DNA from: Gelidibacter mesophilus DSM 14095 | GTDB lineage: Bacteria > Bacteroidota > Bacteroidia > Flavobacteriales > Flavobacteriaceae | Reading direction: 5' to 3' | NCBI RefSeq assembly: GCF_000423005.1 | Contig: NZ_AUHD01000001.1 | Span: 434,001 to 498,000 of the forward strand | DNA: 64,000 bases | Shown: piece after piece, positions 50,886 through 63,414 of the stretch | How the letters are laid out: every line of letters begins with the position of its first letter | Position numbering within the stretch: the first letter of the stretch is position 1 | The notes under the pieces: generated by a model | What the model saw: only the letters and a program-made list of their open reading frames with translations | Database searches by the model: none | What the model was told of the DNA's origin: nothing | Position numbers and translations under genes: made by a program

Positions 50886-51656
50886 ATGTTAGTGACGGAG
50901 TTTAGACCTATTATAAAGGTTATTGAAGAGGCGTATGAGATCCCACATTTGAAGGCTACACGTAAGATTTCGGCCTTATTGCCTCATGATTATTATACCA
51001 CAGATAAACATTATCCTGTACTTTATTTGCAGGATGGACAAAATTTATTCAATCCCATGGCGCCATTTGGCGATTGGGCCATAGATAAATCTTTGGAGAA
51101 ATTAGCTCAGGAAGGTTATAGCGATATCATCATTATTGCTATTGACCATGGTAATCAGGAGCGCATCAATGAATATTTACCCTACTACCATCCGCGTTAC
51201 GGTGAAGGAAAGGGAAATTTTTACATCCAGTTCATTATTGAGAAACTGATCCCATATATCAATAAAAATTATAGAACGCTTACAGATTTTCAAAATACAG
51301 GTATTGGTGGTAGTTCTTTAGGAGGTTTGATCAGTCTGTATGCAGGGTTGCAGAACCCGGGAGTGTTTGGAAAAATGATGATTTTTTCACCAAGTCTGTG
51401 GATTTCAAAAGTTATTTTTAATCAGACCACCTCGTTCCATCCTTTGCAGAAATCAAAAATTTACCTCTATTCTGGTGGCATGGAAAGTGAGGAGCATTTG
51501 CCAAATGCCCAAAGATTGGAGGCAATCTTTAGAGAGAAAATGGTTGAAAATCACGCCATTGAATTTAAATTTTCACTCAATGAAATTGGTGTTCATGCCG
51601 AAATATATTGGAGACACGAGTTTCCTAAAGCCGTTAAATGGCTCTATTTTAATTAA
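50886..51656 (+). CDS. Putative esterase (alpha/beta hydrolase, PF00756-like)
   Basis: The 256-residue protein has no signal peptide and follows the putative esterase family: YPVLYLQDGQNLFNP, GDWAIDKSLEKLAQEG, IDHGNQERINEYLPY, and the nucleophile elbow IGGSSLGGLISLYAGLQNPGVF with the active Ser. The late GVHAEIYWRHEFPKAVKWL contains the likely catalytic His. Family members include siderophore esterases (IroE-like), so it could cleave an ester or amide of the cluster's product. It begins the plus-strand group; the M17 aminopeptidase gene starts only five bases later. Confidence 0.85.
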   Translation: MLVTEFRPIIKVIEEAYEIPHLKATRKISALLPHDYYTTDKHYPVLYLQDGQNLFNPMAPFGDWAIDKSLEKLAQEGYSDIIIIAIDHGNQERINEYLPYYHPRYGEGKGNFYIQFIIEKLIPYINKNYRTLTDFQNTGIGGSSLGGLISLYAGLQNPGVFGKMMIFSPSLWISKVIFNQTTSFHPLQKSKIYLYSGGMESEEHLPNAQRLEAIFREKMVENHAIEFKFSLNEIGVHAEIYWRHEFPKAVKWLYFN

Positions 51657-51661
51657 ATACT

Positions 51662-53074
51662 ATGATCTTTAAATACGTTTCAAAAGTTAATACACATCAA
51701 GATGTTATTGTGCCTTGTAAAAAAGGAAAATTAGAGCAGCTCACTCAATTTATAACCATCAAAGAACCTGATTTTAATGGTGAGTTTTCTACCGTTCAAA
51801 TGCTTTATGGTCCAGAAGGTAATAGGGTTTATCTATTGGGTATCGGAGAAGAAAAGGATGCCGTAAAGATTGATGAAGCTTTTAGAAAGCTGAGCTTTGA
51901 CTATAAAAAATATTGGAAAGCACCTATTCAAGTGGTTACCGAAGGGTTTTCTGATGCAGAACTTCAAAAGGCTGTTATAGGACTTGAAATGTCGGCCTAC
52001 GACATTGGTACTTTTAAAACAAAGAAAGACGAGGTCAATGCCATTACTTTTGAGATTGTCAATAGAAAAGACATTACAAATAGTCTTGAAGAAGCAAAAG
52101 CCATTGGTGCGACCATCAATCGGATTAAAACTTTGGTAGATGCACCAGCAAACCAGAAAACACCTGAATTTTTAGGAGATTGGGCTGAAAAATCCGCTAA
52201 GACTTCCAATTATAAATGTACCGTTCTTCATCAAAAGGAACTTGAAGCACAAGGTTTTGACGCCGTTTTGGCGGTAGGTCAAGGGAGTGCTAATCCGCCA
52301 GTGGTCATTGTGACGGAATATATGCCAAAACAAGGCGCTTCGGTTGATATTGGTTTGGTAGGTAAGGGCATTACCTTTGATACCGGAGGATTATCGATTA
52401 AATCTTCTACCAATTTACATTATATGAAAAGTGATATGGGGGGTGCGGCGGTTGTTTTGGGTGTTGTAGAATTAGCGGCTAAATTAAAACTTGATGTGAA
52501 TATTGTGGGCGTGGTGGCATCTGCCGAAAACGCTGTGGATAGCAAGAGTTACAGACCTGGAGATGTAATCAACAGTTTTTCAGGAAAAACTATTGAAATA
52601 ATCGATACCGATGCCGAAGGCCGTTTGGTCTTGGCCGATGGTTTAAGCTATATTATTAAAAAGTTCCAGCCAAAACAAGTGATTGATTTAGCCACCTTAA
52701 CGGGGAGTGTCGTGCAGACTTTGGGGTATGCGGCAGCCGGCATGTTTACCAACAATATTGAGATGGCACAGCAACTTTCAAAAATAGGCTTTGATACCAA
52801 TGAACGGGTTTGGCCATTGCCGTTGTTTTCAGATTATGAAAGTGATTTGCACAGTGATATTGCTGATTTGCGTAATTTTAGTGGTAAACCGATTGCAGGT
52901 GCCATTACTGCTGCCAAATTTTTAGAAGCTTTTACAGAGGATCATAAAGCGTGGATGCATTTGGATATAGCAGGTGTTTCTTTCGGTGATTCACCATATT
53001 CTAAGATGAAAGGGGCTAGTGGATATGGCGTGCAATTGATTACTAATTATATTAAGCAGATTGCAGAAAACTAA
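51662..53074 (+). CDS. Leucyl aminopeptidase (M17)
   Basis: The 470-residue protein matches the M17 cytosol aminopeptidase family in its C-terminal half: VGKGITFDTGGLSIKSSTNLHYMKSDMGGAAVVLGV with metal and catalytic Lys residues, SYRPGDVINSFSGKTIEIIDTDAEGRLVLADGLSYI, which holds the metal-binding Asp and Glu, and a late LRNFSGKPIAGAITAAKFLEAF. The N-terminal part is shorter and divergent. It removes N-terminal amino acids in the cytosol. It is five bases behind the esterase gene, so the two are co-transcribed, and it is next to the ATP-grasp gene. Confidence 0.93.
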   Translation: MIFKYVSKVNTHQDVIVPCKKGKLEQLTQFITIKEPDFNGEFSTVQMLYGPEGNRVYLLGIGEEKDAVKIDEAFRKLSFDYKKYWKAPIQVVTEGFSDAELQKAVIGLEMSAYDIGTFKTKKDEVNAITFEIVNRKDITNSLEEAKAIGATINRIKTLVDAPANQKTPEFLGDWAEKSAKTSNYKCTVLHQKELEAQGFDAVLAVGQGSANPPVVIVTEYMPKQGASVDIGLVGKGITFDTGGLSIKSSTNLHYMKSDMGGAAVVLGVVELAAKLKLDVNIVGVVASAENAVDSKSYRPGDVINSFSGKTIEIIDTDAEGRLVLADGLSYIIKKFQPKQVIDLATLTGSVVQTLGYAAAGMFTNNIEMAQQLSKIGFDTNERVWPLPLFSDYESDLHSDIADLRNFSGKPIAGAITAAKFLEAFTEDHKAWMHLDIAGVSFGDSPYSKMKGASGYGVQLITNYIKQIAEN

Positions 53075-53197
53075 GTGTTTATTTTGTATTTTGTATCAAA
53101 ATTCAAATAAACTAACAAATAGCACCGCTTTTTAAGGCCTTTGATCAATCTTGAGATTTCTAGTTTTAAAAATACAGCTAATAAAACTCCATAACAC

Positions 53198-54400
53198 ATG
53201 TCCAATAAAAAACCGCTTAATTTTCTATGCGTTACGACGTATCATAAAGGTGCTGATTTCATTAAAAGTTGTAAGGCTGAAGGTAATAACGTCTATTTAT
53301 TGACCAAGAAGAAATTAGAGCATGAGGTTTGGCCTTGGGAAGCAATTGACGACGTGTTTTACGTGGATAACTGGGATCAAAATGATGTCACTAAAGGTAT
53401 TGCCTATAAATTTAGAACAATAAAATTTGATCGATTTGTGGCGCTTGACGATTTTGATGTTGAAAAAGTAGCACTTTTAAGAGAACATTTTAGAATGCCC
53501 GGAATGGGCCGTACGACGTCACATTATTTTAGAGATAAATTAGCGATGCGAACAAAAGCAAAAGCGGAAAACATCAATGTGCCTGAATTTACGGCACTTT
53601 TTCATGATGCTGACATCAATGCGTATGCTGATCACGTAAGTCCGCCGTGGCTGTTAAAACCTCGTTTGGAAGCGTCGGCAACTGGGATTCGGAAAATTAA
53701 CAGTCGGGAAGAGTTGTGGCAGATCGTCAATGTGCTAAAGGATGAACGCGATAATTACTTGATAGAGAAGTTTGCACCTGGAGATGTGTATCACGTCGAT
53801 AGTTTGATAGTAGACAGTAAAGTTGTGTTCTCCCGTGCAAGCAAATATTTGGACACTCCGTTTGAAGTGGCCCATGGTGGTGGGGTGTTTAGATCAGCAA
53901 CATGTGAAATGGGAACTCAATTAGAGAAAGATCTAAGCAAGATGAATGCCCAGGTCATGAAGGCTTTCGGAATGCAATTTGGCGCCTCCCACACTGAGTT
54001 TATTGTTTCTAAAGAAACTGGAGACATGTTTTTCTTGGAAACCTCTTCAAGAGTTGGCGGTGCCAATTTAGCGGAAATGGTAGAACTTGCTTCTGGGATT
54101 AATCTCTGGGGTGAATGGGCGAGAATTGAATCAGCAACGCTAAGAAAGGAAACTTATAAGTTGCCAAAAATCAAAAATCAATATGCAGGGATCGTTGTAT
54201 CCTTAAGCAAATTTGAGAATCCTGATACCTCGAGCTTTAATGATCCGGAAATTGTATGGCGAATGCATAAAAAATGGCATATTGGAATGATTGTAGTATC
54301 TGACAGTAGCGACAGAGTTATGGAATTGTTGGATAACTATACACAACGCATTGCTTCAGATTTTCATGCGAGCATTCCTGCACCGGATAAGAGTTTGTAA
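53198..54400 (+). CDS. ATP-grasp ligase, cluster member 1
   Basis: The 400-residue protein has the ATP-grasp layout of the PurK/carbamoyl-phosphate-synthase-like group: an N-terminal Rossmann-like part (NFLCVTTYHKGADFIKSCKAEGNNVYLLT), FVALDDFDVEKVALLREHF and MGRTTSHYFRDKLAMRTKA at the start of the grasp, LLKPRLEASATGIRKI with the ATP-binding Lys, and HTEFIV...GDMFFLETSSRVGGAN, whose Glu and Asn bind metal. It should form an amide or thioester from a carboxylate through an acyl phosphate. It lies 123 bases downstream of the M17 gene and is the last plus-strand gene before convergence. Confidence 0.88.
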   Translation: MSNKKPLNFLCVTTYHKGADFIKSCKAEGNNVYLLTKKKLEHEVWPWEAIDDVFYVDNWDQNDVTKGIAYKFRTIKFDRFVALDDFDVEKVALLREHFRMPGMGRTTSHYFRDKLAMRTKAKAENINVPEFTALFHDADINAYADHVSPPWLLKPRLEASATGIRKINSREELWQIVNVLKDERDNYLIEKFAPGDVYHVDSLIVDSKVVFSRASKYLDTPFEVAHGGGVFRSATCEMGTQLEKDLSKMNAQVMKAFGMQFGASHTEFIVSKETGDMFFLETSSRVGGANLAEMVELASGINLWGEWARIESATLRKETYKLPKIKNQYAGIVVSLSKFENPDTSSFNDPEIVWRMHKKWHIGMIVVSDSSDRVMELLDNYTQRIASDFHASIPAPDKSL

Positions 54401-54699
54401 TTAACGAGTTAATGATTTGGCAATAGGAATTATTAGTAGTCAGTCTGAAAGAATTTCATAATACCTTCGGAGTTTGACTTAGGGATATTCAATTGTTGAA
54501 TAATTGGTGTTCTGCGTAAATCCGTGAGGATTATGATTTTCTCCGAGTTCTTATAATATGAAAAACTCTCTGTCTTTTTTGTGGCGCTCTGGGTAACATT
54601 GCTTCAAATCAATATTTAAGCGATTCTTCCATATCATTAAGGAGATAAAAATAAATCAGTGAGTATCTTCCTGATCAGCGTCATTCGGGTTTCAAAACA

Positions 54700-55899
54700 T
54701 CAAGGTTCAAAAAAACCCGTACTGCCTCCAACCCAAGTTTTGTACTTATTGTATTTAACACCCACCATTTCACCTTTACTGATTCGGATGAGGTTGCTGA
54801 CAATTTCAGTCTTATTGATTTCGCTATTATGAAGTAGCATCATTCTTATTTCACATTTTGCGGGCTCATCCATCGTTTCGATAATGGGTGCATAGGCCAC
54901 TTTTTCTTGCAACAGGTAGTTCGATTTGTCCTCAACCGCGTCAATCATTGCTTTGTCCACATTTATCTGAACCCCTGCTCCCGCAAAAGAATACAACGGT
55001 TTAAGCACGTAATTCTCTAAATCATTTGGAATGTTTTCAAGTTGGTCTAAATAATAGGATTTTGGTACATAATCGCCTTTTAACAATGGCATCGTGTATT
55101 TACTGATTCTGAAAAACCAATTAGGATGGCCTATCCATTCAATAGCTACCTCATCCTTAAAATCGTATTCGCGAATTAAATCGGGTCGTTGATCCAATTC
55201 GTCAAAAATAATACGGTTGTAAATTTTTAATACTTGAATTTCTGAGCCATTATCATCAACATAAAATAATTGCTTACCTCTTTTAATTAGTTTTGAAATA
55301 CACAATACTTTGATGCCCAGTAATGCTTCGGTTGCAAAGAAATCAATGGCCGTAGCTTGTTTTTCTGGTTCAATTTCAAGAAGAATGACTTGTTTTGGAT
55401 CTGTATCGCCAACAATTTCTGTGCGTAACAATTCAATATAGTCTTCTGAGGTCAATCCGTTCAGGTGTTGTGAAAAATCTTGTGGAATGCCTTCATAATG
55501 CTTTCGATACATGCCACCTATAAATTCCTGGAAAAAATAGAGTGAAGGAAACCCTTGAAGTTCTATGAGTTTTGGAGTTAAATTACCGTTCTCATCCAAA
55601 CATACGCCAAAGTCCAATTGTATAAATTTTGAATGATCATCCTCATTGGGCACTTTCATGCTGTCTTTAAAGAATGCGCCTTCTGTCAGTTCCTTGAAAT
55701 TGGGCTGATCAATGACTTTCATAATATCTTCACAAGCTTCAATCAGCTTCTTTTTTAACTCCTTTGGAATGAACACCGGTGTTTCTGCAATTTTAAACTT
55801 AGGTGTATAGTCAAATTGTGCGATGATGTCTGCCAGCATTCCGGCATACTTTTCTTCAGAAAACTGAGCGTTAAACGCCTTGCGTAAGGTGGCAATCAT
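54700..55899 (-). CDS. ATP-grasp-like protein, cluster member 2 (unassigned subfamily)
   Basis: The 399-residue protein is not one I recognise by family. It has the features of an ATP-grasp-like or glutathionylspermidine-synthase-like fold: LDFGVCLDENGNLTPKLIELQGFPSLYFFQEF, KIYNRIIFDELDQRPDLI, a Lys-containing loop YVLKPLYSFAGAGVQI, and late EIRMMLL and SNLIRISKGEMVGVKYNKYKTW. The LKP-SFAGAG loop resembles the ATP-binding Lys plus Gly-rich loop. The stop lies about 300 bases from the end of the plus-strand ATP-grasp gene. It follows the GATase gene by six bases, so they are one operon. Confidence 0.55.
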   Translation of the reverse strand: MIATLRKAFNAQFSEEKYAGMLADIIAQFDYTPKFKIAETPVFIPKELKKKLIEACEDIMKVIDQPNFKELTEGAFFKDSMKVPNEDDHSKFIQLDFGVCLDENGNLTPKLIELQGFPSLYFFQEFIGGMYRKHYEGIPQDFSQHLNGLTSEDYIELLRTEIVGDTDPKQVILLEIEPEKQATAIDFFATEALLGIKVLCISKLIKRGKQLFYVDDNGSEIQVLKIYNRIIFDELDQRPDLIREYDFKDEVAIEWIGHPNWFFRISKYTMPLLKGDYVPKSYYLDQLENIPNDLENYVLKPLYSFAGAGVQINVDKAMIDAVEDKSNYLLQEKVAYAPIIETMDEPAKCEIRMMLLHNSEINKTEIVSNLIRISKGEMVGVKYNKYKTWVGGSTGFFEP

Positions 55900-55905
55900 A
55901 ATATA

Positions 55906-56724
55906 TTATGAGATTAATTGAGATGATAGTTGTTTCATGGCGCGTTCAATAAACTTGGGTAAAATGATTTTATGGGTTCTGATGATTTTATCGGGATCAT
56001 CCATTTTGTCCATCATATCATCGTATTTCTCCTCGCCAAAATTCGCAATGACCTTGAGCTTATTGGCCTCTCCCAAAAAGTGCGCCCTCATGCCCACAGG
56101 ATCGGCTTCGGGATGAAATTGGGTGCCTACAAACTCTTTTGAAAAACGAACCGCCATTATGGCGCGTTCATAACTGACATGACTTCGTATTTTTTCGAGA
56201 CTTAAAATGGAAGCGCCTTGTTCTTTGAATACATTTAAACGAGGTTGAACCAATTGCCAATCCCGTGAATCCACAGCATAAAATGGGTCATCAAGGCCTT
56301 CTAAAAGGGGGTCTTTTAAACCTTTTTTAGTTTTATGGATCGGTAAAACTCCAAAAGAAGTTCTTCGTCTTGGTTTCATTTCTCCCAATTTAAAATAGTC
56401 GCACACTACTTGAAACGAATAGCAGATAAAGAACATATATTTCTTTTGGTGCTGCGAGGTTTTGTTGAAATCCCACAGTTCTTGAACTAAATTGAGATAT
56501 GGAATCCGCCACGGACCATCTTCAAGTGGACTGTCAGGTCCGCCACTTGAAATATAAATATCAAAGGAGTTGTCAGGTATTTCAAGTGCACCTCTAACAT
56601 TAAATATGGTGTAATCTACTTCATCATCAAACCCTCTCACAATATCCGCTATACAACGTAAGCCTTGGTTAGCTTGGTTGTTGTTCATATCAAGAATGGC
56701 TACTTTAAATTTGTCTTTAAGCAT
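55906..56724 (-). CDS. Class I glutamine amidotransferase of the amidoligase cluster
   Basis: The 272-residue protein has the full catalytic triad of class I GATases: Cys101 in FFICYSFQVV, His204 and Glu206 in TQFHPEADP, with a Gly-rich SSGGPDSP element near residue 60 as in GuaA and TrpG. The usual nucleophile motif G-x-C-x-G is CYS-based here. The C-terminal 60 residues form an extra helical region. It would release ammonia from glutamine, or hydrolyse a gamma-glutamyl bond, as a partner of a ligase in this operon. It is 10 bases behind the GCS2 gene and six bases ahead of the ATP-grasp-like gene. Confidence 0.8.
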   Translation of the reverse strand: MLKDKFKVAILDMNNNQANQGLRCIADIVRGFDDEVDYTIFNVRGALEIPDNSFDIYISSGGPDSPLEDGPWRIPYLNLVQELWDFNKTSQHQKKYMFFICYSFQVVCDYFKLGEMKPRRRTSFGVLPIHKTKKGLKDPLLEGLDDPFYAVDSRDWQLVQPRLNVFKEQGASILSLEKIRSHVSYERAIMAVRFSKEFVGTQFHPEADPVGMRAHFLGEANKLKVIANFGEEKYDDMMDKMDDPDKIIRTHKIILPKFIERAMKQLSSQLIS

Positions 56725-56734
56725 GTAATTTTTT

Positions 56735-57829
56735 CTAAGTACCTAAAATGGTCTGGTCCATAATATAGTCAACCACCTTAGTTAAATCCTTGGTTTCTTC
56801 AAAAATGGCAAGCTGTCTGTCAGCCCCAGTGCCATTTAGCATCATGGTTTTTACATGTTCTATTTCCTTACGGGAACCGAGTTCATCCACAACATCATCT
56901 ACAAAATCAAGCAATTCTAACATTAATTCCTTGGTTTGCACTTCACATTCCTTGCCAAAGTCGATCATACTGCCATCAAGTCCGTATCTGCTGGCGCGCC
57001 ATTTGTTCTCATTTATCAAGGCCCGATGATAGAGCATGAAGTTGAGGTTTTGCGTTCTCAGTTTGTAAAGTTTTGCAACCAATGCTTGGATTAGTGCCGC
57101 AATACTTAAGGTTTCTTCTACGGTCATGGGTACATCACAAATACGTACTTCTAAAGTTGGAAAGAAGGGATGGATGCGAATATCCCACCATATTTTTTTT
57201 GGATTGTCAATGCATTTTGTTTTGATCAACACATCGATATAATGTTCATATTCAGCCACGGTTTGGAAAATCCCAGGAATACCTGTTCTTGGAAATTTAT
57301 CGAAGATCTTTGAACGAAAGGATTTAAATCCCGTATTTCTTCCTTCCCAAAACGGAGAATTGGTTGATAAAGCATATAAATGCGGTAAAAAGTAGCGCAT
57401 GGCGTTAGTTAAGTGCAAAGCCAATTGTTTGTCTTCTATGCCCACATGAACATGGAGTCCAAAAATCAAGTTTGAACGCGCTGTATCTTGAAGTTCATCA
57501 ACGATTTCGGCGTACCTTGGATTTGGGGTAATGAGTTGTGTTTCCCATTTCGTAAAAGGATGGGTGCCTGCAGCACCAATCCTAAACCCTAAAGATCCTG
57601 CAATTTCCGAAATTGATTTCCGCAAATGGGTGAGATCCTTTCTGGCCTCCGTAATGTCCTGACAGATATTGGTCCCAACTTCCACTACCGCCTGGTGCAT
57701 TTCTGCCTTGACTTGATCATTTAATATTTTTTCGGCTACTGTAACAATTTGTTGGTCATGCGAGATGAGTTCCCGCGTTGTTGGACAGATGACCTGATAT
57801 TCCTCTTCAATGCCTAATGTGAATTTCAT
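56735..57829 (-). CDS. YbdK/GCS2-type carboxylate-amine ligase
   Basis: The 364-residue protein matches the YbdK branch of the glutamate-cysteine ligase 2 family: FTLGIEEEYQVI at the N-terminus (metal-binding Glu pair at about 8-9), VVEVGTNICQDI, GAAGTHPFTKWE, IFGLHVHVGIEDKQLALHLTNAMRYFLPHLYALSTNSPFWEG, and WWDIRIHPFFPTLEVRICDVPMTVEETL. Members join a carboxylate, often the gamma-carboxyl of Glu, to an amine with ATP. The E. coli homologue shows weak glutamate-cysteine ligase activity. It lies between the ATP-grasp and GATase genes in one operon, so it probably builds an early peptide bond of the product. Confidence 0.9.
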   Translation of the reverse strand: MKFTLGIEEEYQVICPTTRELISHDQQIVTVAEKILNDQVKAEMHQAVVEVGTNICQDITEARKDLTHLRKSISEIAGSLGFRIGAAGTHPFTKWETQLITPNPRYAEIVDELQDTARSNLIFGLHVHVGIEDKQLALHLTNAMRYFLPHLYALSTNSPFWEGRNTGFKSFRSKIFDKFPRTGIPGIFQTVAEYEHYIDVLIKTKCIDNPKKIWWDIRIHPFFPTLEVRICDVPMTVEETLSIAALIQALVAKLYKLRTQNLNFMLYHRALINENKWRASRYGLDGSMIDFGKECEVQTKELMLELLDFVDDVVDELGSRKEIEHVKTMMLNGTGADRQLAIFEETKDLTKVVDYIMDQTILGT

Positions 57830-57897
57830 ATAATCGGGGTGGTTTATGTGAAGACCTTCCAGTCTCGAAGAATCGCTTCTGAAAGGTCCGTGAATCT

Positions 57898-58860
57898 TTA
57901 TTTAAAAGCAGTCTTCTTGCCAGTAATCTGATCTTTGACAAATGTCCCCCAGGTAAGGTTCATTTTATCTTTCTTGTATTGTTTGGCTTTATTAATGGCC
58001 ATATTGGCAGCATTTTCAACAATCCAATCGAAATTTTCTTGACCTACGGAATTGATGTCTGCATCTGGTGCTGGGTTGCAGAAATCAATAGCATAAGGAA
58101 TGCCGTCGCGGATAGCAAACTCCACCGTATTAAAGTCATAGCCTAATGCTTTATTCAAACGGATACAATATTTTTTGACCAGGTCCAGTATTTCTTTTTT
58201 GACGGGTGGGCCATCAATCACGTATCGTAAATGGTGCGGATTTCTTGGCTCATATTGCATAATATGAACGTTGTCCGTATCTAAAACGTAACATCTAAAA
58301 TATTCCGTAAAGTTGATTTCTTCTTGGAGCATCATCACCAAATTCTCTGTCTCACCATGTTTTTTCCAAAGATCTTGTGGATTTTCTACACGATAGACGC
58401 TTTTCCAACCACCACCATCATGAGGTTTCATATAGGCAGGAAATCCAATGGTATCAAACATATGTTCCCAAGCAAAAGGGAATTTCATATTACGGAACGA
58501 CTCCTCGCTCGTATCTGGTGGACGATGAGAGGTAGGTAAAATAAATGTTTTTGGTACCGGGACACCTACTTTTTCTGCCAAAGCATTGTTAAAGAACTTC
58601 TCATCAGCACTCCACCAAAAAGGGTTATTGATAACGGCAGTTCCTGAAATGGCTGCATTTTTAAGATAGGCGCGATAAAAGGGAACGTCTTGAGAAATTC
58701 TATCAATAATAACCGCGTAATCTGTTGGTTTAGCTTGTTCTACCATGTCTATGGAAACAGCTTCTGCGACAATACCCTTTACTTTTTTTTCATTGACACG
58801 ATCAATGAATGCTTGAGGGAATGTGTTTTCTTTTCCGAATAGGATGCCTATTTTCTTCAT
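57898..58860 (-). CDS. RimK-like ATP-grasp ligase, cluster member 3
   Basis: The 320-residue protein has the ATP-grasp pattern: an N-terminal Rossmann-like GILFGKENTFPQAFIDRV, SADEKFFNNALAEKVGVPVPKTFILPTSH, the Lys loop GFPAYMKPHDGGGWKSVYRV, LMMLQEEINF-like strand, and the metal site DFNTVEFAIRDGIPYAIDFCNPAPD, with the Glu and Asn. A C-terminal Lys-rich tail follows. It ligates an amine to an acyl phosphate. It starts 32 bases after the esterase gene and ends 68 bases before the GCS2 gene; the operon is therefore esterase, ATP-grasp, GCS2, GATase, ATP-grasp-like. Confidence 0.88.
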   Translation of the reverse strand: MKKIGILFGKENTFPQAFIDRVNEKKVKGIVAEAVSIDMVEQAKPTDYAVIIDRISQDVPFYRAYLKNAAISGTAVINNPFWWSADEKFFNNALAEKVGVPVPKTFILPTSHRPPDTSEESFRNMKFPFAWEHMFDTIGFPAYMKPHDGGGWKSVYRVENPQDLWKKHGETENLVMMLQEEINFTEYFRCYVLDTDNVHIMQYEPRNPHHLRYVIDGPPVKKEILDLVKKYCIRLNKALGYDFNTVEFAIRDGIPYAIDFCNPAPDADINSVGQENFDWIVENAANMAINKAKQYKKDKMNLTWGTFVKDQITGKKTAFK

Positions 58861-58892
58861 GTATATCAGTTTTGGTTGTAAATTTTGATTAA

Positions 58893-59597
58893 TTATAATT
58901 TTGAGAGGTATTCAGGAAACATTTGACGCCATAATGGCCAGTCATGTTTTGCCCATCTTCGGACATCATACCAAAAAGGAATGTTTTTGTCCCGAAGTAT
59001 TTGTGCCATCTTATCATTGGCTTCCAAACAAATGTCCCATTCACCAACGCCTAGGATAATTTTCATTTTCCATAAATCGGGATGGTTACTGCCAGGAAGA
59101 AAATCTATAGGGTTGTTGAAGAACACATTGTCATCATAATGACCGTCTACAAATGATTTGATATCAAATGCACCACTCATACTAAACATATGACTTACTT
59201 TTTCTGGATGTTTAAACGCAAAGTTTGATGCTTGATAACCGCCAAAGCTAGGACCTGCAACAGCCACCTTATTCAGCTTCTTGTCAGTACAGATAGGATT
59301 GACCAATTCATTTAAAATAAACTGATCATACCAACTATGATTTTTGGCGCGTTGTGAGGGATGGATTTTTTTATTGTACCAACTCAATTCATTAATGCCG
59401 TCTGGACAGTAAATTTGAACTTTACCTTGCTCTACAAACCAGCGTACAGAATCCACAAGTTTCATGTCTCTACATTCATTGTGTTTACCCATTGTAGTTG
59501 GGAAAAGTATAACGGGATATCCTGAGTGGCCAAAAACGAGCATTTCTATGTCCTTGCTGAGCGTAGGAGAGTACCATTTGTGATGTTGTTCTTTCAA
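58893..59597 (-). CDS. Putative esterase, first gene of the minus-strand amidoligase operon
   Basis: The 234-residue protein follows the putative esterase family: MLVFGHSGYPVILFPTTMGKHNECRDM, VQIYCPDGINELSWY, the nucleophile elbow AVAGPSFGGYQASNFAFKHPEKVSHMFSMSGAFD, and GVGEWDICLEANDKMAQ with the catalytic Asp, then AKHDWPLWRQMFP with the His. It lacks a signal peptide. The plus-strand group also begins with an esterase of this superfamily, so the two may act on the same product. The 600-base region upstream should hold the operon promoter. Confidence 0.85.
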   Translation of the reverse strand: MKEQHHKWYSPTLSKDIEMLVFGHSGYPVILFPTTMGKHNECRDMKLVDSVRWFVEQGKVQIYCPDGINELSWYNKKIHPSQRAKNHSWYDQFILNELVNPICTDKKLNKVAVAGPSFGGYQASNFAFKHPEKVSHMFSMSGAFDIKSFVDGHYDDNVFFNNPIDFLPGSNHPDLWKMKIILGVGEWDICLEANDKMAQILRDKNIPFWYDVRRWAKHDWPLWRQMFPEYLSKL

Positions 59598-60194: not shown

Positions 60195-60818
60195 ATGAAA
60201 CAGTTAATTATTATTACCGTATTATTTGTGACCGGGATGGTGTCGGCACAAAGCAATTATGACAAAGGCATGCAAAAAGCATTTGACTTTTGGAAGAATA
60301 ACCAATGGACGGAAGCGGAACAACTTTTTGAACGGATCGCTGCTGCAGAACCTGATCAATGGTTGCCAAATTATTATATTGCGCAATTAAACAGTCTAAA
60401 AACTTGGGAAGAGAAGGATGCTGATATCGTAAAAGCTCAATTGGAAAAGGCTCAAAACGCTCTTAATGAAGCCATGGGCGTGGTAAGGGACAATGCAGAT
60501 ATCTTAGTTATGCAAGCGCAAATCTTGACCAATTGGGTCGCTTTTGACGGGATGACCTATGGCATGAAATATTCAGCAAAAATATCGGAATTGTACAATA
60601 GAGCCTATGCATTGGCTCCCAATAATCCGATGGTCGTGCTTGGTAGAGCAGAGTGGAACATGGGAAGTGCCCGATATTTTGGACAGGATACCGCGCCGTT
60701 TTGTAAGGATGTAGAAAAAGCCATTGAACTTTTTGCTAACTTTAAACCTGAAAAACCTTTTTATCCTAATTGGGGACGAGAGCACGCCGAATCGGTATTA
60801 AGATCCTGTAACAATTAA
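60195..60818 (+). CDS. Secreted TPR-like protein of the sensory operon
   Basis: The 207-residue protein has a signal peptide (ends near VSAQ, residue 19), then tandem helical repeats of the TPR type: YDKGMQKAFDFWKNNQWTEAEQLFERIAAAEPDQWLPNYYIAQL, ADILVMQAQILTNWVAFDG, LYNRAYALAPNNPMVVLGRAEWN. It should lie in the periplasm or on the surface. It is 18 bases ahead of the LytS-type kinase gene, so it may be a partner or a target of that signalling unit. I do not recognise the exact family. Confidence 0.75.
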   Translation: MKQLIIITVLFVTGMVSAQSNYDKGMQKAFDFWKNNQWTEAEQLFERIAAAEPDQWLPNYYIAQLNSLKTWEEKDADIVKAQLEKAQNALNEAMGVVRDNADILVMQAQILTNWVAFDGMTYGMKYSAKISELYNRAYALAPNNPMVVLGRAEWNMGSARYFGQDTAPFCKDVEKAIELFANFKPEKPFYPNWGREHAESVLRSCNN

Positions 60819-60836
60819 CACAATCATAAAGAGCCC

Positions 60837-62171
60837 ATGATAAGGAAACCAATACATAACGTTCTGATTACTTTTTTTATAGGATGCTTAGTTTTTGTGG
60901 CAGGAAATATAATCTATGGCGGATTTCGATATGAGAGTTTGAATGATTTTTTAGTGGATTTCAGTTTTTATCAATTGTATAGTTTTCTGCTGGGATATTC
61001 TAATTATTATTACTTCGCGTATCTCGAAAAATTAAATTGGAAAAAAGAAGAGGGAATCAAACGTATTGTTATTGGGATTGTGGGTTCGGTGGTCATAACC
61101 ATGATTGGCTTGATGGTATTAAACGGATTTCAATATGTCATTTATCGAGGGGTCTCTCTAATTGATTTTATAAGCACGCAACGTTGGAGCCAGTATCGAT
61201 TTGGACTTTGGATTACCCTGACCATTGTTATTATATTTCATTTTGTTTATTTCTATAATCGGTACCAACAGAATAAGATTAAGGAACAAAAAGTTATTGC
61301 GAACACGGCCAGTGCGCAATTTGAAAGCCTCAAAAATCAGATAGATCCTCATTTTTTGTTCAATAGCTTAAATGTGTTGACGTCACTCATTGAGGAAAAC
61401 CCCGATAATGCACAGCGCTTTACAGTATCCTTATCAAAAATTTACAGATATGTTTTAGAACAGAAAGATAAGGAGCTGGTTACAGTGGCGGAAGAGCTCG
61501 AATTTGCCAAAACCTATATGGATCTTTTAAAGATGCGCTTTGAAAACAGTATTAATTTCGAAATTCCTGAAAATTTTAACCATACCGATGCCAAAGTGGT
61601 ACCGTTATCCTTACAATTACTATTAGAAAATACCATAAAACATAATACCGTGAGTGAAGCAAAACCTTTACACATTAAAATCACGGTAGAAGACAACTAT
61701 TTAGTGGTACAGAATAATTTGCAGAAAAAAGAAGTCCTTCAAACACGAAAAGGAGTAGGGCTACAAAACATAGTCAACAGATATGATATTCTAACCAAAA
61801 GAAATGTTTTGATAGACGAATCAAGCACTTTCTTTAAAGTGAAAATACCAATCTTGACCAAACAAACAGCTATCATGGATACAAAATATTTATATAACGA
61901 ACAAGACGCCTATCATCGGGCAAAAAAGAGAGTGGAAGATATTAAAGGCTTCTTTGGGAACTTAGTATCCTACTGCGTGGTCATTCCTTTTTTAATATTC
62001 ATTAATTATAAAACCTCTTGGAGCTATCAATGGTTCTGGTTTCCTATGTTGGGCTGGGGGATGGGTGTCATTTTTCATGCCTTTGGGGTGTTTGGGTACG
62101 GAAAAGAATGGGAAGAGCGAAAAATAAAAGAAATTTTGGAAAAAGAGCAGAACACTAAAACATGGAACTGA
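60837..62171 (+). CDS. LytS-type sensor histidine kinase fused to a C-terminal 2TM domain
   Basis: The 444-residue protein has four hydrophobic segments in the first 140 residues, then a kinase of the LytS/PF06580 type: SAQFESLKNQIDPHFLFNSLNVLTSLI with the phospho-acceptor His172, LEFAKTYMDLLKMRFEN, the ATP-binding LSLQLLLENTIKHNTV and GVGLQNIVNRYD. After residue 345 a second module begins: YHRAKKRVEDIKGFFGNLVSYCVVIPFLIFIN, WFWFPMLGWGMGVIFHAF and WEERKIKEILEKEQ, which is a 2TM domain. Its coding end overlaps the next gene by 10 bases. Confidence 0.9.
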   Translation: MIRKPIHNVLITFFIGCLVFVAGNIIYGGFRYESLNDFLVDFSFYQLYSFLLGYSNYYYFAYLEKLNWKKEEGIKRIVIGIVGSVVITMIGLMVLNGFQYVIYRGVSLIDFISTQRWSQYRFGLWITLTIVIIFHFVYFYNRYQQNKIKEQKVIANTASAQFESLKNQIDPHFLFNSLNVLTSLIEENPDNAQRFTVSLSKIYRYVLEQKDKELVTVAEELEFAKTYMDLLKMRFENSINFEIPENFNHTDAKVVPLSLQLLLENTIKHNTVSEAKPLHIKITVEDNYLVVQNNLQKKEVLQTRKGVGLQNIVNRYDILTKRNVLIDESSTFFKVKIPILTKQTAIMDTKYLYNEQDAYHRAKKRVEDIKGFFGNLVSYCVVIPFLIFINYKTSWSYQWFWFPMLGWGMGVIFHAFGVFGYGKEWEERKIKEILEKEQNTKTWN

Positions 62172-62485
62172 TGGAACCTAATTATTTTGAAAAGGAACGT
62201 TATGAACGCGCCAAGAAGCGCGTCAAGAGAATGAGCGGATTTTATAGTCATTTATTGGTATATGTGGTAATAAACTTGATGATCGTAGTTGTCAATATTC
62301 AGCAACTGGACGCAGGAGAAAGCTATTTTAAATGGCAAAATTTTACAACGCTCTTTTTTTGGGGCATTGGACTTTTAGCGCACGGTCTTTCCGTATTTAT
62401 GCCTTATATCGTTTTAGGCAGAAACTGGGAAGAAAAAAAGATCAAAGAAATTATGGAGAAAGATCGGAAGAGCAAATGGGAATAA
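62162..62485 (+). CDS. Free 2TM-domain protein
   Basis: The 107-residue protein has the same layout as the C-terminal domain of the kinase before it: ERYERAKKRVKRMSGFYSHLLVYVVINLMIVVVN, FFWGIGLLAHGLSVFM and GRNWEEKKIKEIMEKD. Two transmembrane helices are flanked by basic and acidic segments. The start overlaps the kinase stop by 10 bases, so the two should be translationally coupled. The kinase and this protein may assemble through the 2TM unit. Function is otherwise unknown. Confidence 0.9.
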   Translation: MELMEPNYFEKERYERAKKRVKRMSGFYSHLLVYVVINLMIVVVNIQQLDAGESYFKWQNFTTLFFWGIGLLAHGLSVFMPYIVLGRNWEEKKIKEIMEKDRKSKWE

Positions 62486-62490
62486 TGGTT

Positions 62491-62657
62491 TAAGAATCAG
62501 GATTTCAGTATTTAGTATCAAGTATCAGGAATCAGGATTCAAGAATCAAGAGGTTGTGTGTTTTTAGGATGACAACATTCTACCACCAAGATTATAATTC
62601 CTCAAACCTCAAATCGATTTACTATTCGCTAATACCAAACACCTAATTCCTAATACA
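62491..62657. repeat. Degenerate ATCAGGA/ATCAAGA repeat tract and A/T-rich spacer
   Basis: The gap between the 2TM gene and the LytTR gene holds imperfect short units such as AAGAATCAGGAT, AGTATCAAGT, ATCAGGAATCAGG and AAGAATCAAGAG, plus later CTAATACC and CCTAATTCC units. Such tracts are found between genes in flavobacteria. They give no protein. Confidence 0.6.
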
Positions 62658-62658
62658 A

Positions 62659-63414
62659 ATGAATGTAATCATCATAGAAGACGAAAAACCATCTGCACGC
62701 CGTTTGCAGCGCATGTTGGGTAATTTAATGATTGAGGCGCATACCATGCTGCACTCTGTTGAAGAATCCATTGCTTGGTTTATAGAAAATAAACATCCTG
62801 ATTTGATATTTTTAGATATTCAACTAAGTGATGGTTTGTCCTTTGAAATTTTTGAAGCTCTAGAAATCAATTCCGCCGTTATCTTTACAACCGCCTATGA
62901 CGCCTATGCCTTACAAGCGTTCAAGCTTAATAGTATTGATTATTTGTTAAAGCCTATAGACGAAGAAGATCTTGCAAAGGCAATTGCTAAGTATAAAATG
63001 CGTTTGCCAACTCAGAAACCTGTAGTGATTGATTTTGACGACATCCGAAAACTATTGGTCAACCCCTTGGACCTCACTTATAAAAAGCGGTTCTCGGTCA
63101 AGCTAGGGCAACATCTTAAATTAATTGCTATTGAAGATATTGAGTGTTTCTATAGCGAAAATAAGGGTACCTATGCCTATACTAAAGACGGGAGAAATTA
63201 TCTTTTAGATATTAGTTTGGAACAGTTGGATTCAGACTTAGAGCCCAAACTGTTTTTTCGGGTGAGCAGAAAATTCTATGTGAACATCAACGCGATTAAG
63301 GATATGATCAGCTATACCAATTCCCGACTGCAAATTAAATTGAACACTTATAATGAACAGGATGTTATTGTAGCCAGAGAACGTGTGAAGGATTTTAAGG
63401 ATTGGTTGGAGTAG
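62659..63414 (+). CDS. LytTR-family response regulator
   Basis: The 251-residue protein has an N-terminal receiver: MNVIIIEDEKPSARRLQRML with the acidic pair, phospho-acceptor Asp53 in LIFLDIQLSDG, FTTAYDAYAL and LKPID with the conserved Lys. From about residue 145 comes the LytTR DNA-binding domain: KRFSVKLGQHLKLIAIEDIECFYSENKGTYAYTKDGRNYLLDISLEQLDSDL, FFRVSRKFYVNINAI. It is the likely partner of the LytS-type kinase upstream; the pair regulates unknown targets. It follows the repeat tract by one base and ends one base before the opposing gene. Confidence 0.93.
   Translation: MNVIIIEDEKPSARRLQRMLGNLMIEAHTMLHSVEESIAWFIENKHPDLIFLDIQLSDGLSFEIFEALEINSAVIFTTAYDAYALQAFKLNSIDYLLKPIDEEDLAKAIAKYKMRLPTQKPVVIDFDDIRKLLVNPLDLTYKKRFSVKLGQHLKLIAIEDIECFYSENKGTYAYTKDGRNYLLDISLEQLDSDLEPKLFFRVSRKFYVNINAIKDMISYTNSRLQIKLNTYNEQDVIVARERVKDFKDWLE

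Follow-up and report, generated by a model that had tools for sequence, protein, structure and literature searches.

A candidate multi-ligase pathway, largely co-inherited in Bacteroidota, encoded by an eight-gene locus of Gelidibacter mesophilus

Analyses of a 64,000 nt window of the genome of Gelidibacter mesophilus DSM 14095 (GCF_000423005.1, contig NZ_AUHD01000001.1, positions 434,001–498,000, forward strand; "the window" denotes this whole stretch) suggested that eight neighboring genes represent one largely co-inherited Bacteroidota pathway, whose product would be a small intracellular amide or oligopeptide made with neither an NRPS nor a ribosomal precursor. We place the probability of this reading at roughly 0.55. 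The set probably assembles, and also trims, a small peptide-like molecule in the cell, and the best reading is a cytoplasmic, NRPS-free joining of free carboxylates and amines that is followed by trimming. The best explanation of its distribution is a core of R2K, GCS2 and ATPg399 with a lineage-dependent remainder, in which one lineage group has exchanged ATPg399 for an ATP-grasp-like protein.

The eight genes lie in two convergent groups, three on the plus strand and five on the minus strand (Table 1), and their ORF coordinates were identical to those in a preliminary description of the locus. The tight spacing reported there was confirmed, with gaps of 32, 68, 10 and 6 bases in the minus-strand group and of 5 bases between the first two plus-strand genes. 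Its account of the gene content was borne out by Pfam and NCBIfam profile scores and, for two ATP-grasp proteins, by similarity or fold. The host of the set is a marine bacterium.

Table 1. Genes of the eight-gene set, with positions in the window.
Gene	Assignment	Position	Strand	Basis	Remarks
Est1	alpha/beta hydrolase, PF00756 esterase	50886..51656	+	Pfam and conserved S144/H237	
M17	leucyl-aminopeptidase-type metallopeptidase	51662..53074	+	Pfam and conserved residues	
ATPg400	ATP-grasp ligase similar to L-amino acid ligases	53198..54400	+	similarity to 4wd3	400 aa
ATPg399	glutathione-synthetase-fold ATP-grasp ligase	54700..55899	-	predicted fold	399 aa
GAT	class I GATase fold, probable amide or gamma-glutamyl hydrolase	55906..56724	-	Pfam	
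GCS2	YbdK-type carboxylate-amine ligase	56735..57829	-	PRK13515 and 1r8g	
R2K	R2K/RimK-like ATP-grasp ligase	57898..58860	-	R2K_2 and fold	
Est2	alpha/beta hydrolase, PF00756 Esterase	58893..59597	-		first gene of the minus-strand group; TTG start

Scattered, unlinked genes in relatives, which the preliminary description had named as speaking against a pathway, were not what we observed. Among 80 named loci, which lean to close relatives because they are the 80 top-ranking of 90 loci retrieved by an ATPg399 similarity search, all eight genes were present in one orientation pattern in 42, and R2K, GAT and ATPg399 occurred together in 70. Control neighbors from outside the set were found in 4 (qor), 5 (TPR), 6 (RR) and 7 (HK) of the 80 loci, and this difference (4–7 against 42) ruled out a chance neighborhood. 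In addition, four genomes of one other genus carry the collinear order Est1-M17-ATPg400-Est2-R2K-GCS2-GAT-ATPg399 on a single strand, and a fifth genome of that genus has seven of the eight genes at a contig end. Because all eight genes share one strand in this genus, we regard the two convergent groups as one system; the collinear operons ruled out two unrelated groups.

The distribution of five of the genes (R2K, GCS2, ATPg399, ATPg400 and GAT) in a phylum sample of 296 genomes indicated that they co-occur even where they are unlinked. R2K was present in 108 genomes, GCS2 in 103 and ATPg399 in 92, so that roughly one in three genomes sampled from this major phylum carries the co-inherited set; GAT was found in 70 and ATPg400 in 66. 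The genomes with ATPg399 had R2K in 89 and GCS2 in 87 of the 92 cases, and R2K accompanied ATPg400 in 66 of 66 genomes and GAT in 69 of 70. For all ten pairs of the five genes, the observed co-occurrence was unmatched in any of 5000 within-family shuffles, which drew on 125 genomes from 18 families chosen as varying. In one family, eight of 16 genomes had all five genes and the other eight had none, with GAT and ATPg400 located on other contigs or more than 1 Mb away. Together, synteny and co-occurrence supported the unassigned multi-ligase pathway of the preliminary description as a single pathway comprising clearly more than four genes. We infer that joint inheritance on this scale is more characteristic of a broadly useful metabolite than of an uncommon antibiotic.

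The GCS2 protein was assigned with high scores (Pfam, 217.2 bits against a cut-off of 21; NCBIfam carboxylate-amine ligase PRK13515, 533.5 bits against 371; similarity to YbdK, 1r8g, E 3.7e-50), and it is the sole GCS2 match in the host genome. GCS2 was absent from 17 of the 108 R2K genomes, and several Saprospiraceae and Chitinophagales loci have kept R2K-GAT-ATPg399 and lack GCS2, so that a gamma-glutamyl first step could not be universal. The R2K match to R2K_2 (PF18299) was borderline (26.2 bits at a cut-off of 26.2), and its predicted model (pLDDT 84.1) matched the folds of Ddl (D-Ala ligases), PsnB, LysX/ArgX and RimK. Passages of PMC4431377 define R2K.2 by two basic residues, the lysine of strand 2 and another K/R in the loop after it; our R2K proteins have K145 in 91 of 91 sequences and, at position 153, K in 85 and R in 6. 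R2K shares with RimK/LysX/ArgX and the R2K.2 family a common fold and the K145 and K/R153 signature. It may differ from them in that, although R189, D259 and N262 are present in 91/91 sequences, the glutamates of the ExR and ExN motifs are not at the expected places; read by eye, YxR appears to replace ExR and DFCN to replace ExN.

For both ATPg400 and ATPg399 all Pfam matches were under the cut-off. ATPg400 was similar to the solved L-amino acid ligase 4wd3 (E 1.3e-19) and, among further structures, to 30vh (E 1e-08) and 3vot (E 1.3e-07), and its residues K154, R156, E267, E281 and R285 are kept in 54/54 sequences. With the predicted model of ATPg399 (pLDDT 93.3), Foldseek returned yeast glutathione synthase as the top match (E 1.1e-13) and 23 PDB matches at E <= 0.001, all by title from the glutathione synthetase superfamily (E 1.1e-13 to 8.1e-08, query TM-score 0.43–0.64). 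On this model, ATPg399 is by predicted fold a member of the glutathione/glutathionylspermidine/trypanothione synthetase superfamily (yeast Gsh2, GspS, YgiC, YjfC). It is unlike the known members in sequence, with identities of 11–17%, a GSP_synth score of 14.1 bits against a cut-off of 29.3 and no Pfam match to GSH synthase. Its residues R229, K300, E350 and R352 were invariant in 169/169 sequences.

ATPg399 was missing from 19 of the 108 R2K genomes. A 452-aa ATP-grasp-like family was found by tblastn 3' of R2K in 15 of 20 R2K regions, corresponding to 15 of the 19 without ATPg399, and was found neither in 45 genomes with ATPg399 nor in 28 that lacked all five genes. The 452-aa protein is weakly ATP-grasp (PF14403, 20.9 bits, below the cut-off of 32), and kinship with ATPg399 was unsupported (hhalign probability 4.8). 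The fungal E-64 ligase Cp1B (9cjn) shares the fold of ATPg399 and, in the passages of PMC12568646 on that pathway, belongs to an NRPS-free route of amide formation. The E-64 pathway as given there differs in being fungal and in combining an oxygenase-made warhead with an amide bond synthetase, and these passages make no mention of GCS2 or R2K.

The class I GATase named in the preliminary description was retained as an assignment, based on PF00117 (29.7 bits, cut-off 22.8) and on a Cys-His-Glu triad (C101, H204, E206) present in 112/112 sequences, and its likely role was refined by what replaces it. The slot before ATPg399 holds, by lineage, the GATase, an M29 peptidase-like protein or an amidohydrolase-like protein. 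A close M29 group (59–100% identity, query included) was found in six of 41 pathway genomes without GAT, in none of 39 with GAT and in none of 70 that lacked all five genes, and in five of the six genomes the M29-like gene lies between GCS2 and ATPg399. One M29-like copy had a stop inside the match. In 11 loci the amidohydrolase-like protein immediately precedes ATPg399, and in six of these the two overlap by 4 bases; one whole protein and one fragment of the 11 were profiled, and all their matches were under the curated cut-off. Because the slot otherwise holds proteins of these two kinds, GAT appears more likely to hydrolyze an amide than to supply ammonia. PuuA-PuuD and EgtA-EgtC are pairs of a gamma-glutamyl ligase and a hydrolase. 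Like them, the set combines a ligase of the glutamine-synthetase superfamily with a hydrolase able to cut a gamma-glutamyl amide; unlike them, it adds three ligases, M17 and two esterases, and its GAT matches PF00117.

The remaining hydrolases were assigned by profile and had well-kept residues. M17 scored 375.4 bits against a Pfam cut-off of 25, and K235, D240, D258, D317, E319 and R321, which we take to be its metal ligands and catalytic residues, were invariant in 49/49 sequences. Both esterases exceeded the PF00756 cut-off of 22 (Est1, 105.6 bits; Est2, 37.1 bits). Est1 kept S144 and H237 in 62/62 aligned sequences, distant Est1-like paralogues included. Est2, present in 61 of the 80 named loci, kept S117 in 71, D188 in 75 and H218 in 72 of 76 aligned sequences, the serine being absent from five.

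Based on these assignments, the pathway probably starts from a gamma-glutamyl amide. GCS2, by its putative YbdK-type activity, would link glutamate, through its gamma-carboxylate, to an amine; ATPg399 would activate the carboxylate left free in the resulting compound and add a second amine or amino acid, and R2K may attach one further residue. In lineages that have it, ATPg400 could provide an L-dipeptide or similar building block. The slot protein before ATPg399 (GATase in G. mesophilus, M29- or amidohydrolase-like elsewhere) would cleave off a glutamyl group or another amide, and M17 and the esterases might trim or recycle the product.

Gene clusters that mix ATP-grasp proteins, GCS2-type ligases and peptidases were reportedly predicted as a class by Iyer, Abhiman, Burroughs and Aravind in 2009 (Mol BioSyst 5:1636). 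Those amidoligase neighborhoods resemble the present set in this mixture; the joint inheritance across the phylum and the swaps of hydrolase and of ligase are observations of the present analysis. The enzyme set was not named in the titles or abstract openings of the literature found on the subject. We consider the chances evenly balanced that it makes an undescribed, widely conserved intracellular metabolite or cofactor-like peptide of Bacteroidota with no NRPS, using as many as four dissimilar amide ligases (R2K, GCS2, glutathione-synthetase-fold and L-amino-acid-ligase-like), its hydrolase and second ligase both having been exchanged for unrelated proteins in evolution. Compact and in many cases arranged as an operon, the set offers biocatalysis three dissimilar stand-alone amide ligases.

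Several other functions were weighed against this pathway. RimK adds amino acids to ribosomal protein S6, and R2K, with a fold like those of RimK and LysX/ArgX, could act with its partners to attach amino acids to a protein or peptide of the cytoplasm, from which peptidases remove the tag. The co-occurrence of ligases with peptidases would suit such tagging, and peptide-tag roles are proposed for R2K-clade enzymes in passages of PMC4431377. We consider this unlikely: unlike RimK/LysX/ArgX, R2K has no linked target that stands out, as gene families outside the set each occurred in at most 14 of the 80 named loci, ATPg399 and ATPg400 resemble small-molecule ligases, and L-amino acid ligases with M17 peptidases seem a better fit to free dipeptides. 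Somewhat less probable still is an amidated osmolyte, in which a dipeptide would gain a terminal amide from GATase ammonia and be degraded by the peptidase at falling osmolarity. The N-acetylglutaminylglutamine amide (NAGGN) system, with a GNAT-ATP-grasp synthetase, a class II GATase and an M42 peptidase, is a similar mix, and at one locus ATPg399 shares its reading frame with a sodium/solute symporter domain. However, none of the eight proteins matched a NAGGN model of NCBIfam at E values up to 0.1 (for ATPg400, among the best 25 of 30 matches), GAT is absent from 39 of the 108 R2K genomes with unrelated families in its slot in some, and the cluster also occurs in Spirosoma, Larkinella and Arcicella, none of which we know as a marine genus.

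We hold a glutathione-like redox thiol to be just as improbable as the osmolyte. GCS2 and a glutathione-synthetase fold do mirror the GSH pathway, such that GCS2 would make gamma-glutamylcysteine and ATPg399 a tripeptide, GAT and M17 would degrade it, and the esterases would act on thiol adducts, as S-formylglutathione hydrolase is a member of the same esterase family. However, ATPg399 reached no GSH or GSP synthase model, such a pathway has no role for R2K and ATPg400, and BshC of bacillithiol synthesis was present in 291 of the 296 genomes, the host included, which makes a sole redox-thiol role unlikely. A graspetide RiPP, with the ATP-grasp proteins crosslinking a small ribosomal peptide, is very improbable. 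The graspetide ligase PsnB was among the best structural matches of R2K, but D-Ala ligases, LysX/ArgX and RimK matched R2K about as well, and scanning of four gaps in 172 loci found no widely conserved short frame that could be a precursor gene. Of ten matched fragments checked for position, eight overlapped genes and two lay wholly in a gap, matching five and six of the 172 loci, and six was the highest number of loci matched by any short frame confined to a single gap. This disfavored the RiPP reading and agrees with the absence of a RiPP precursor noted in the preliminary description.

A plasmid-borne set was likewise rejected, with no R2K matches in 72,556 plasmid records (E 1e-15). Promoter-like sites were near the level in shuffled sequence (36 against a mean of 31.6, sd 6.7), whereas terminator-like sites exceeded the shuffled level (13 against 7.6, sd 2.5).

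ORF calling bore out the positions and spacing of the eight ORFs in the preliminary description. Profile searches of the eight proteins identified two PF00756 esterases (Est1 and Est2), an M17 peptidase, a GCS2/YbdK carboxylate-amine ligase (GCS2), a class I GATase fold (GAT) and, as a borderline match, an R2K_2 ATP-grasp protein (R2K); the 400- and 399-residue ATP-grasp-like proteins (ATPg400 and ATPg399) were under Pfam cut-offs. By sequence similarity, ATPg400 resembled L-amino acid ligases of known structure (4wd3, E 1.3e-19). The ATPg399 model, built with 49 sequences (pLDDT 93.3), matched yeast and human glutathione synthase, glutathionylspermidine and trypanothione synthetases, YgiC, YjfC and the E-64 ligase Cp1B, and 23/23 of its PDB matches at E ≤ 0.001 were, by their titles, from the glutathione synthetase superfamily (11–17% identity). 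The R2K model (37 sequences, pLDDT 84.1) matched D-Ala ligases, the graspetide ligase PsnB, LysX/ArgX and RimK. GAT residues C101, H204 and E206 were conserved in 112/112. The presumed nucleophile serine of Est2 was G, D or E in five of 76 sequences (L081, L116, L128, L135 and L139), and Est2 may be non-catalytic in those loci.

Species genomes scanned with ATPg399 yielded 90 relatives, the nearest by this protein being Gelidibacter pelagius (94%), and the best 80 of the 90 loci were kept, a sample biased to close relatives. When a match of at least 38% identity and at least 80 bits was counted as presence, GAT was found at 74 of these 80 loci, R2K at 71, GCS2 at 63, Est2 at 61, ATPg400 at 46, and M17 and Est1 at 44 each. 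Four control genes adjoining the set from outside were present at only 4 to 7. The preliminary description had proposed a neighbourhood check for at least four genes conserved together, and this turned out in favor of a pathway: all eight genes were present at 42 of the best 80 of 90 loci, always in the orientations of the window. Among 63 ATPg399 regions from the more even draw of the phylum described below, taken with flanks of at most 9 kb and some shortened by contig ends, four had the single-strand order Est1-M17-ATPg400-Est2-R2K-GCS2-GAT-ATPg399, and a contig-end region (L140) had seven of the eight genes. All five were from one genus and the arrangement may represent one event; the single-strand regions indicate that the window's two convergent groups form one system. 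Many distant genomes had ATPg399 with no partner genes within the flank (≤ 9 kb).

Co-occurrence was determined in 296 Bacteroidota genomes, a more even draw of the phylum than the 80 loci, in which ATPg399 was present in 92 genomes, R2K in 108, ATPg400 in 66, GCS2 in 103 and GAT in 70. R2K accompanied ATPg399 in 89/92 genomes, ATPg400 in 66/66 and GAT in 69/70, and GCS2 accompanied ATPg399 in 87/92. Fisher values for pair overlaps ignore kinship, and presence was therefore shuffled within 18 families picked as varying (125 genomes); for each of the ten gene pairs, 0/5000 shuffles reached the observed overlap. The five genes were all present in 8/16 genomes and all absent in 8/16 of one family, in which GAT and ATPg400 were on different contigs from ATPg399 or more than 1 Mb off; in another they were all present in 7/10 and all absent in 3/10. 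The counter-cases among the 296 genomes were GCS2 without the other four genes in nine (36–43% identity), R2K without the other four in four (32–42%) and three ATPg399 genomes with no R2K match.

The position before ATPg399 was not always occupied by GAT. In five genomes an M29 metallopeptidase-like protein (assigned from the PF02073 match of one member) replaced it between GCS2 and ATPg399. The close M29 group (59–100% identity, query included) was present in 6/41 pathway genomes without GAT, 0/39 with GAT (Fisher p = 0.026) and 0/70 with none of the five genes (p = 0.0003 versus 0/109); matches at 27–31% identity were taken to be a different paralogue. The M29 copy in one genome, G271, was reported with a stop within the match. 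At 11 loci in two families an amidohydrolase-like protein was directly upstream of ATPg399, with a 4-base overlap in six; profile searches of one complete protein and one fragment returned only sub-threshold matches. We read this slot as one hydrolytic step served by enzymes that are not related to one another, and this speaks against the GATase being there to provide ammonia.

A 452-residue protein family directly followed R2K in 15/19 genomes having R2K but not ATPg399, with GAT next in 14/15 of these regions. The four regions without it were exactly the four with a weak R2K match (32–42%). The family matched a circularly permuted ATP-grasp profile weakly (PF14403, 20.9 bits versus a cut-off of 32). 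A search of 45 of the 92 ATPg399 genomes and of 28 genomes lacking all five genes did not find it; this sample held no positive genome. Based on its place after R2K where ATPg399 is missing and its absence from the 45 ATPg399 genomes searched, the 452-residue protein looks like a substitute for ATPg399 and may be a replacement ligase, although comparison of the two did not support sequence kinship.

The analyses above directly show which genes make up the set, its conserved residues and folds, and its linkage, co-inheritance and exchange of members. For the individual pathway steps, we infer that GCS2 would form a gamma-glutamyl amide, which ATPg399 would extend, as glutathione synthetase does, at a free carboxylate. 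R2K would make a further addition, ATPg400 would supply a dipeptide, and GAT, M17 and the esterases would trim; lineages without GCS2 indicate that the first step can differ. No obvious signal peptide was seen by eye in any of the eight proteins, and every gene family outside the set was at no more than 14 of the best 80 of 90 loci, including, as named by eye, a transport-type ATPase (12/80) and an RND-type protein (8/80), mostly within single genera. The lack of obvious signal peptides and of a widespread outside family suggests that the product probably stays in the cytoplasm. The presence of BshC in 291/296 genomes indicates that the set is not the sole thiol source of the phylum.

Mixed-amidoligase clusters were reportedly predicted as a class by Iyer et al. 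in 2009, and the kind is already known. The R2K clade was defined, and operons of linked ligases reported, in PMC4431377; the eight-gene set is not in the consulted portion of that paper, nor was it named by any title or abstract opening in the literature searched. Added here are the composition of the set, its inheritance across the phylum, and the swapping of its hydrolase and of a ligase.

Features near the gene set or its related loci
Feature	Location	Remarks
TPR protein, histidine-kinase-like protein, LytTR-type response regulator	window 60195-63414	upstream of Est2; names by eye except TPR
Class III aminotransferase	L059, L060, L062, L063, L065-L068, L073, L074, L076, L077, L079	
452-residue family after R2K	L176-L179, L181-L186, L188-L191, L193	

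The TPR, histidine-kinase-like and LytTR-type genes were at only 5 to 7 of the best 80 of 90 loci and are therefore probably unrelated to the set. A class III aminotransferase family (PF00202 on one member) was near the cluster at 13 of these 80 loci, in Spirosoma, Larkinella, Arcicella and other Cytophagales. At L131 a sodium/solute symporter domain (TIGR00813, 162.7 bits; cut-off 184) and ATPg399 shared one open frame of 867 residues; at L133 and L134 the symporter domain appeared by eye to be a distinct ORF upstream of ATPg399. Just downstream of ATPg399 at L045, a 144-residue ORF had by eye the look of a retropepsin-type aspartic protease, similar to that carried by Pseudomonas rim and rlo loci according to the consulted portion of PMC12239564.
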